A stretch of DNA of 64,000 nucleotides, from contig JAFGJX010000086.1 of NCBI GenBank assembly GCA_016928865.1, forward strand, positions 1 to 64,000, written 5' to 3'. Position 1 is the stretch's first letter, and the number at the start of each line of letters is the position of its first letter. The position numbers and the translations under genes are program-made. Of the stretch, positions 62,012 through 64,000 are shown in pieces. The notes below the pieces were generated by a model that saw only the letters and a list, made by a program, of their open reading frames with translations, had not been told where the DNA came from and did no database searches. Source of the DNA: Spirochaetota bacterium. GTDB lineage: Bacteria > Spirochaetota > UBA4802 > UBA5550.

Positions 62012-63250
62012 ATGAGCATGCATACGGGCATTTTCTCGCATGCGCAACTCGCGGACAGGATCGGTATGGTACTACAGGCAGAAAAGGCGGCCGCCGTTTA
62101 CTTCGACAATGCCGCAACATCGTTTCCAAAGCCGCCGGCGGTGATCGGGGCGGTAACGGACTACATGACCCGGGTCGGCGGAAACCCGGGACGATCGGCC
62201 CATGCCCGCTCCGTCGATGCGGGAGAAGCTGTTTTTGCCGCGCGAGAGGCGGCCGCGGAGCTGTTCGGCGCGTCGAATCCGATGCGCGTGCTCTTCGCCA
62301 GTAACGCCACCGATGCGCTCAATCTCGCGGTACAGGGGATACTCCGCCCCGGCGACCATGCGGTTACCACCGCCATGGAGCATAACAGCGTAATTCGTCC
62401 ACTCCGGGAGATGGAGGCGCGGGGCGTGGCGCTCACCGTGGTGCCCTGCCCGGACGGCCGCCTGGACCCGGAGCGGTTTTCCAGGAGCGTGCGCGGGGAC
62501 ACGAAGCTCGCGGTTGTCAATCACGCGTCGAACGCTTTCGGCATCCTCCAGCCGCTGCGCGATATCGCTGCCGTGTGCAGGGAACGGGGAATCGTCCTGC
62601 TCGCGGATTGCGCCCAGACAGCCGGTATCATCCCGATCGACATGGAGCGTGACGGCATCGACCTGCTCGCCTTTGCCGGGCACAAGGGACTGTACGGGCC
62701 TACCGGGACCGGCGGCCTCGTGCTCGCGGGAGGATTTGATACCGCGTTGCTTCGCCCATTGAAATTCGGCGGCACTGGCAGCAATTCCGACAGCGAGGTG
62801 CAGCCCGATTTTCTTCCTGACAGATACGAGAGCGGGACACTGAACGCGGCCGGGATCAGCGGGCTTAACGCGGGGATCCGGCATATTTTTTCTTTACAGG
62901 ACGGCGTGAAGAGTGTACATTCGCACAAGAAAATGCTTGCGGACCGTTTCATTAATGGCGTACGCGGCTCCGTGCGGGGTTTTACGGGCTACGTGCCGGC
63001 AGAGAGGATCGAGACTGGAGTGGTTTCTTTCAACATTGCGGGAATGGAACCCTCAGAGGTTGCGTATCTCCTTTCGGAGCGCTATGGCATCATGTGCCGG
63101 CCGGGGCTTCACTGCGCGCCTCTGGCACACCGCACCATGGGAACCTTCCCGGGGGGGACGGTGCGCTTCAGTTTCGGAATTTTCAACACGGAAGAAGAGA
63201 TAGATTTATCCATCCAGGCGCTGGGAGAAATCAGCAGCGGAAAGAGATGA
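62012..63250 (+). CDS. Cysteine desulfurase-like PLP enzyme of selenium module
   Basis: 412 residues. Class V aminotransferase fold: AVYFDNAATSFPKPPAVIGA, HASNAFGILQPL, PLP lysine K225 (FAGHKGLYGP) and catalytic C368 in GLHCAPLAH. It fits the TIGR01977-like group of cysteine desulfurases often encoded beside selD. It may release sulfur or selenium from cysteine or selenocysteine for later SelD-linked steps. The start is uncertain: ATG 62066 has AGGATC before it and begins nearer the family start, so the first 18 residues may not exist. It overlaps the DUF3343 gene by ATGA. Confidence 0.88.
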   Translation: MSMHTGIFSHAQLADRIGMVLQAEKAAAVYFDNAATSFPKPPAVIGAVTDYMTRVGGNPGRSAHARSVDAGEAVFAAREAAAELFGASNPMRVLFASNATDALNLAVQGILRPGDHAVTTAMEHNSVIRPLREMEARGVALTVVPCPDGRLDPERFSRSVRGDTKLAVVNHASNAFGILQPLRDIAAVCRERGIVLLADCAQTAGIIPIDMERDGIDLLAFAGHKGLYGPTGTGGLVLAGGFDTALLRPLKFGGTGSNSDSEVQPDFLPDRYESGTLNAAGISGLNAGIRHIFSLQDGVKSVHSHKKMLADRFINGVRGSVRGFTGYVPAERIETGVVSFNIAGMEPSEVAYLLSERYGIMCRPGLHCAPLAHRTMGTFPGGTVRFSFGIFNTEEEIDLSIQALGEISSGKR

Positions 63251-63471
63251 AAGAATATTGCGTCATATTATTCCAGACGGTAACGCAATCAGTCTGGACA
63301 TCCCGCCTCCTGAAAAAGGCCGGCATCGAGAGGAAGATGGTTCCGATACCACGCTCCCTGAGCGCGGACTGCGGCTATTGTGTGCGGGTGTTGCGGGATG
63401 ACGCACAGAGGGTGCGGGAGCTCCTTGACCGGAGCGGAGTTGGCTGCGCGCGGATAGAAAACTATCAGTAA
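63247..63471 (+). CDS. DUF3343 small Se/S-carrier-like protein
   Basis: 74 residues, ATG 63247 overlapping the previous stop (ATGA). DUF3343 family: KEYCVILFQTVTQSVWTSRL then SLSADCGYCVRVL with CGYC and a short C-terminus. The family is a small YedF/TusA-neighbouring domain often linked to selD and a desulfurase. A sulfur- or selenium-carrier role is proposed for the family and not shown here. It is coupled to the desulfurase and precedes selD by 115 bases. Confidence 0.87.
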   Translation: MKEYCVILFQTVTQSVWTSRLLKKAGIERKMVPIPRSLSADCGYCVRVLRDDAQRVRELLDRSGVGCARIENYQ

Positions 63472-63476
63472 GAGGC

Positions 63477-63540
63477 CCCCCACCCCCCCGGAGGGGGGCT
63501 TGGGGTCGGTTGAGATACTATGGTTCCCTTCGGGGGAATT
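63477..63540 (+). repeat. GC-rich two-tier hairpin upstream of selD
   Basis: CCCCC (63477-63481) with GGGG (63502-63505) outside, and CCCCCC (63484-63489) with GGGGGG (63493-63498) inside a GGA loop. A second hairpin GGTTCCC/GGGAATT (63522-63540) follows. Neither has a T-run, so it is not a normal terminator. It lies in the 115-base gap before selD and could affect mRNA processing or expression. Confidence 0.55.
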
Positions 63541-63586
63541 GAGATGAACAATAACCCCGGCTTTCAACCCGGGAAGAGGAGAAGCC

Positions 63587-64000
63587 ATGGGCGACACGTG
63601 TGACATCAGCAAGCTGAACCAGCTGCGCCTCACCGAGTCCGTATCGAGCTCCGGTTGAGCTGCGAAAATAGGTCCGGCGGACCTTGAAGCGGTCATGAAG
63701 GGCATGCGCATCAGCTATGACCGGAATGTCATCGTGGGGATGGACGCCAGCGACGATGCCGGCGTGTACCGGATATCCGAATCGGTCGCGCTGGTACAGA
63801 CCGTGGATTACATCACCCCGATCGTCGACGATCCGTTCACCTTCGGCAGGATAGCGGCATGCAACAGCCTGTCTGACGTGTACGCCATGGGCGGCAGGCC
63901 CATAACGGCGCTGAACATCGTATGCTTTCCCGTGAAAAAGTTCTCGACCGACGTTCTCGGCGATATCCTTGCCGGCGGGCTTTCGGTCATGGAGGAGGCC
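63587..64000 (+). CDS. selD: Selenophosphate synthetase, itself a selenoprotein (partial)
   Basis: AGGAG six bases before ATG 63587. The frame reads through TGA 63656-63658 as residue 24 and continues to the window edge (138 codons) with clear SelD sequence: [50 protein letters not shown] and [20 protein letters not shown]. Residue 24 is the position of the catalytic Cys (Cys17 in Escherichia coli) or selenocysteine in SelD. A hairpin directly follows the TGA (see 63659). SelD makes selenophosphate from selenide and ATP. It therefore needs selA, selB and selC products from outside this window. The 3' end is cut by the window. Confidence 0.95.
63659..63690 (+). promoter_or_regulatory. SECIS-like hairpin for selenocysteine insertion
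   Basis: AGGTCC (63670-63675) pairs perfectly with GGACCT (63679-63684) around a GGC loop whose first base lies 17 bases after the TGA. Bacterial SECIS elements have their apical loop at about this distance, usually with G and U in the loop and a bulged U. The loop here has two G but no U, so the fit is good in position and only partial in sequence. Confidence 0.7.

Follow-up and report, generated by a model that had tools for sequence, protein, structure and literature searches.

Selenocysteine (Sec)-containing selenide, water dikinase (SelD) is a well-known selenoprotein family (PMC1794560, PMC9312934, PMC4561486) and one of the two most widespread in bacteria (PMC1794560, PMC9312934). Among spirochaetes, Treponema denticola is already known to be rich in selenoproteins (PMC1794560). 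Bacterial SECIS elements are characterised by a small apical loop that contains a guanosine (PMC1088965). With regard to selenium supply, NifS-like proteins have been proposed as selenium donors for selenophosphate synthesis (PMC4561486), and DUF3343 proteins have been proposed as selenium-trafficking chaperones (PMC9312934). The selD locus described here lies at the end of the window, the whole stretch of 64,000 nt that was analysed, and its closest named relatives are from uncultured Spirochaetota. It shares with the bacterial Sec-SelD systems the protein family, the position of Sec, a SECIS-like hairpin after the UGA, and the presence of selA, selB, and selC in the genome; nothing of substance differs except the host lineage, an uncultured order of Spirochaetota. 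Judged from its sequence, the gene is almost certainly an ordinary bacterial selD in which TGA is read as Sec, an assignment that is correct but not new.

The frame of selD was read directly from its ATG, which is preceded at 5 nt by a ribosome-binding site, and it contains an in-frame TGA in the context ...TCC GGT TGA GCT GCG AAA ATA GGT CCG GCG GAC CTT.... The contig sequence past the window carries the frame to a TGA stop, and translation of the internal TGA as Sec gives a product of 355 residues with Sec at residue 24. An initial annotation of the window had claimed a SelD-type protein unbroken on both sides of the internal TGA, with the rest of the gene to be found past position 64000. 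Indeed, the genome profile search returned a SelD match at 63626-64552 (E 1.4e-110; profile positions 1-310 of 311) with one TGA inside it, and the remainder of the gene was recovered as given in Table 1. The translated protein belongs to the SelD family, scoring 376 bits against TIGR00476 (cut-off 125; model positions 1-310 of 311). The same annotation had expected that standard gene finders would split or truncate the gene. The list of open reading frames contains an uninterrupted ORF of 319 aa from ATG 63695, at which automatic gene callers would truncate selD, with consequent loss of the active site.

Table 1 Features of the selD locus and of the Sec machinery. Positions are those of the window unless a contig is named; C23 is a contig of the same genome.
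Feature	Position	Strand	Basis and details
Cysteine desulfurase / selenocysteine-lyase-like gene	62012..63250	+	TIGR01977 (EF2568 family), 438.6 bits, cut-off 377; PF00266
Putative Se/S carrier protein	63247..63471	+	PF11823, 63.2 bits, cut-off 25
Ribosome-binding site AGGAG for selD	63577..63581	+	Direct reading
selD, selenide water dikinase	63587..64000, to contig position 64654	+	TIGR00476 and translation; N-terminal 138 codons inside the window
TGA codon 24, predicted to be read as selenocysteine	63656..63658	+	Alignment with 3u0o and 2yye; codons of relatives
Predicted bacterial SECIS	63656..63695	+	Fold and recoding excess; upper stem 63670-63675/63679-63684, apical loop GGC 63676-63678
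selC	C23:42862-42950		73.2 bits for tRNA-Sec; anticodon TCA (ARAGORN)
selA	C23:43128-44447		486.7 bits
selB	C23:44507-46315		302 bits

In an alignment with solved SelD chains, residue 24, within SSGUAAK of the query, pairs with the first of the two Cys in GAGCGCK of PDB 3u0o. This chain is E. coli SelD, and the aligned Cys is its catalytic residue. The two proteins are orthologous over residues 11-321 (249 bits), but 3u0o has GCGCK where the query has GUAAK, with predicted Sec for the first Cys and Ala for the second. The Lys that follows this N-terminal active site is conserved (U24-A-A-K in the query and C-G-C-K in 3u0o). In 2yye, the stretch SSGCAAKVGPGDL likewise corresponds to this region. 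Furthermore, the active-site stretch SSG[C/U]AAKxGPxDL is common to the query and to the SelD structures 2yye and 2zod, whereas the crystallised chain has Cys where the query would have Sec.

The codon at this position was then compared in 109 aligned relatives: TGA was found in 99, TGC in seven, and TGT in three, with no other codon. The TGA thus falls, as the initial annotation had it, on a residue that is Cys or Sec in the family, and the aligned codons show the pattern by which bacterial selenoproteins are recognised, namely UGA in some homologues and Cys in others. In the genome collection, a SelD match containing one internal TGA was returned for every one of the five same-genus genomes, for another 31 genomes of the same order, and for two additional members of the phylum; the same TGA also occurs in most of 80 loci from named genomes belonging to several phyla. 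Sec-type selD is accordingly documented in most sampled members of this uncultured Spirochaetota order. One genome of the same family (G006) carries a pair of SelD genes (L039 and G006:C22:34368-35276), of which one has the TGA and the other no internal stop.

The perfect hairpin reported in the initial annotation at 12 bases after the TGA is present as GGTCC-GGC-GGACC at 63671-63683. Counted from the U of UGA, it occupies nt 16-28, and its apical loop GGC, with G first, occupies nt 21-23, which agrees with the small guanosine-bearing loop of bacterial SECIS elements. The hairpin folds at -7.9 kcal/mol (z -2.0), and the 45-nt element including the UGA at -15.0 kcal/mol (z -2.4) with the UGA within the lower stem. 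A longer stretch of 71 nt around the site showed no excess stability (z -0.4); the shorter windows of bacterial-SECIS size were chosen after this result, and a recoding test was relied on instead. A search of Rfam gave no match at gathering score for the element or the whole window. A PyrD leader match upstream was below threshold, with an E value (0.35) at chance level, and was rejected.

Because the region is coding, the hairpin was tested against synonymous recodings. For this selD alone, 4% of the recodings equalled its hairpin, which is only mildly unusual, so that the hairpin by itself is weak evidence. Across 98 TGA-containing genes, the fraction of recodings was below 0.05 in 61 (median, 0.025), and the mean hairpin score was 17.0 versus 10.9 for the recodings; across ten Cys-containing genes, the fraction was below 0.05 in two (median, 0.305). 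The genes in both sets are related, and these counts are not independent. Three of the ten Cys relatives retain a similar hairpin, so that its presence would not by itself establish Sec. Some relatives have stem variants that preserve pairing, such as GGUCC/GGAUC, or GUGC/GCAC in another register. The hairpin is maintained across the family beyond what codon usage predicts, in a clearly non-random manner.

The initial annotation had named selA, selB, and selC as genes whose absence from the genome would speak against Sec. All three are present, and they are consecutive in one cluster on a single contig (Table 1). Family searches, by which the selenoproteome of the genome was sampled, also detected three formate dehydrogenase alpha (FdhA) genes on contigs C108, C3, and C13 (L131, L133, and L134, respectively), in each of which a single in-frame TGA falls within an R[LI]UHS motif; automatic callers would likely split these genes too. 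A selU/ybbB homologue was found at 311.7 bits. Since this homologue occurs together with selA, selB, selC, and the Sec-FdhA genes, the genes for two published uses of selenium, Sec and selenouridine, are present. No convincing further selenoprotein emerged when the window was scanned roughly for other genes with in-frame TGA, but the filter was leaky and missed selD itself, and the result is not evidence of absence.

Other readings of TGA 63656 were weighed against these results. If it were a true stop, selD would be a pseudogene or would be truncated to begin at ATG 63695, from which the uninterrupted ORF does start; such a shortened SelD would be without its catalytic residue, whereas the conserved N-terminal part is kept in frame with its own ribosome-binding site, the position of the TGA is conserved across phyla, and the genome contains the Sec machinery. 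We consider a true stop very improbable. That the codon is really TGC or TGT, misread in sequencing or assembly, is more improbable still: the assembly consists of 131 contigs at 90% completeness, and a few relatives do have TGC or TGT, but the same TGA recurs in 36 further genomes from the order and in the majority of the 80 named-genome loci. This recurrence in independent genomes was taken in place of the resequencing that, had it revealed TGC or TGT, would have overturned the initial annotation. Conservation of the TGA across genomes excludes, for practical purposes, both an assembly error and a pseudogene.

The codon would also be translated if UGA had been reassigned throughout the genome, for example to Trp or Gly, instead of being read as Sec. 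Nothing in favour of this reading was observed. Ordinary genes here stop at TGA, including the desulfurase and selD itself, the in-frame TGAs that were detected fall where SelD and FdhA have Sec, and selC encodes a tRNA-Sec whose anticodon is TCA; reassignment is therefore about as improbable as a sequence error. No evidence contradicting the Sec reading was found in this analysis, and we hold with high confidence that selD encodes selenophosphate synthetase as a selenoprotein, with Sec supplied by the cellular machinery at residue 24 through UGA 63656.

On the established biology of bacterial selenoproteins, SelB with Sec-tRNA(UCA) would bind the hairpin just 3' of UGA 63656, and Sec would be inserted at the residue that corresponds to the catalytic Cys of the E. 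coli enzyme. SelD would form selenophosphate from selenide and ATP. Selenophosphate would then be used by SelA to make Sec-tRNA for SelD and the three formate dehydrogenases, and by SelU to make selenouridine in tRNA. Selenium probably reaches SelD through the adjacent cysteine desulfurase and the PF11823 protein.

These two neighbours lie directly upstream of selD, the start codon of the PF11823 gene overlapping the stop of the desulfurase gene; the desulfurase also resembles the selenocysteine lyase SclA, below the cut-off. PF11823 is the DUF3343 family of the literature. The same kinds of genes, an EF2568-family cysteine desulfurase and DUF3343/PF11823, characterise described selD neighbourhoods, but both are kept beside selD only in a subset of the relatives, many of which lack this pair of neighbours. 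It is conceivable, though rather unlikely, that the desulfurase, the PF11823 carrier, Sec-SelD, and the downstream genes described below form a dedicated operon for selenium uptake and delivery in this genus.

Two genes for VTT-domain (DedA-like) membrane proteins lie directly 3' of selD, beyond the window (contig C118:64651-65849; L004:4652-5850), the first overlapping the selD stop. This arrangement is retained in three same-genus loci (L038, L041, and L042) and in L051, and related genes are also found 3' of selD in several loci of Bryobacterales/Acidobacteriia. On the other side, several inverted repeats rich in GC are found in the 115-nt gap before selD (63472-63586); one of them is CCCCGGCTTTCAACCCGGG (63555-63573). 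Similar palindromes, of the form CCCCGGG-loop-CCCGGGG, occur in the corresponding gap of two same-genus relatives, where they differ in number and position, as if the palindrome were repeated or mobile.
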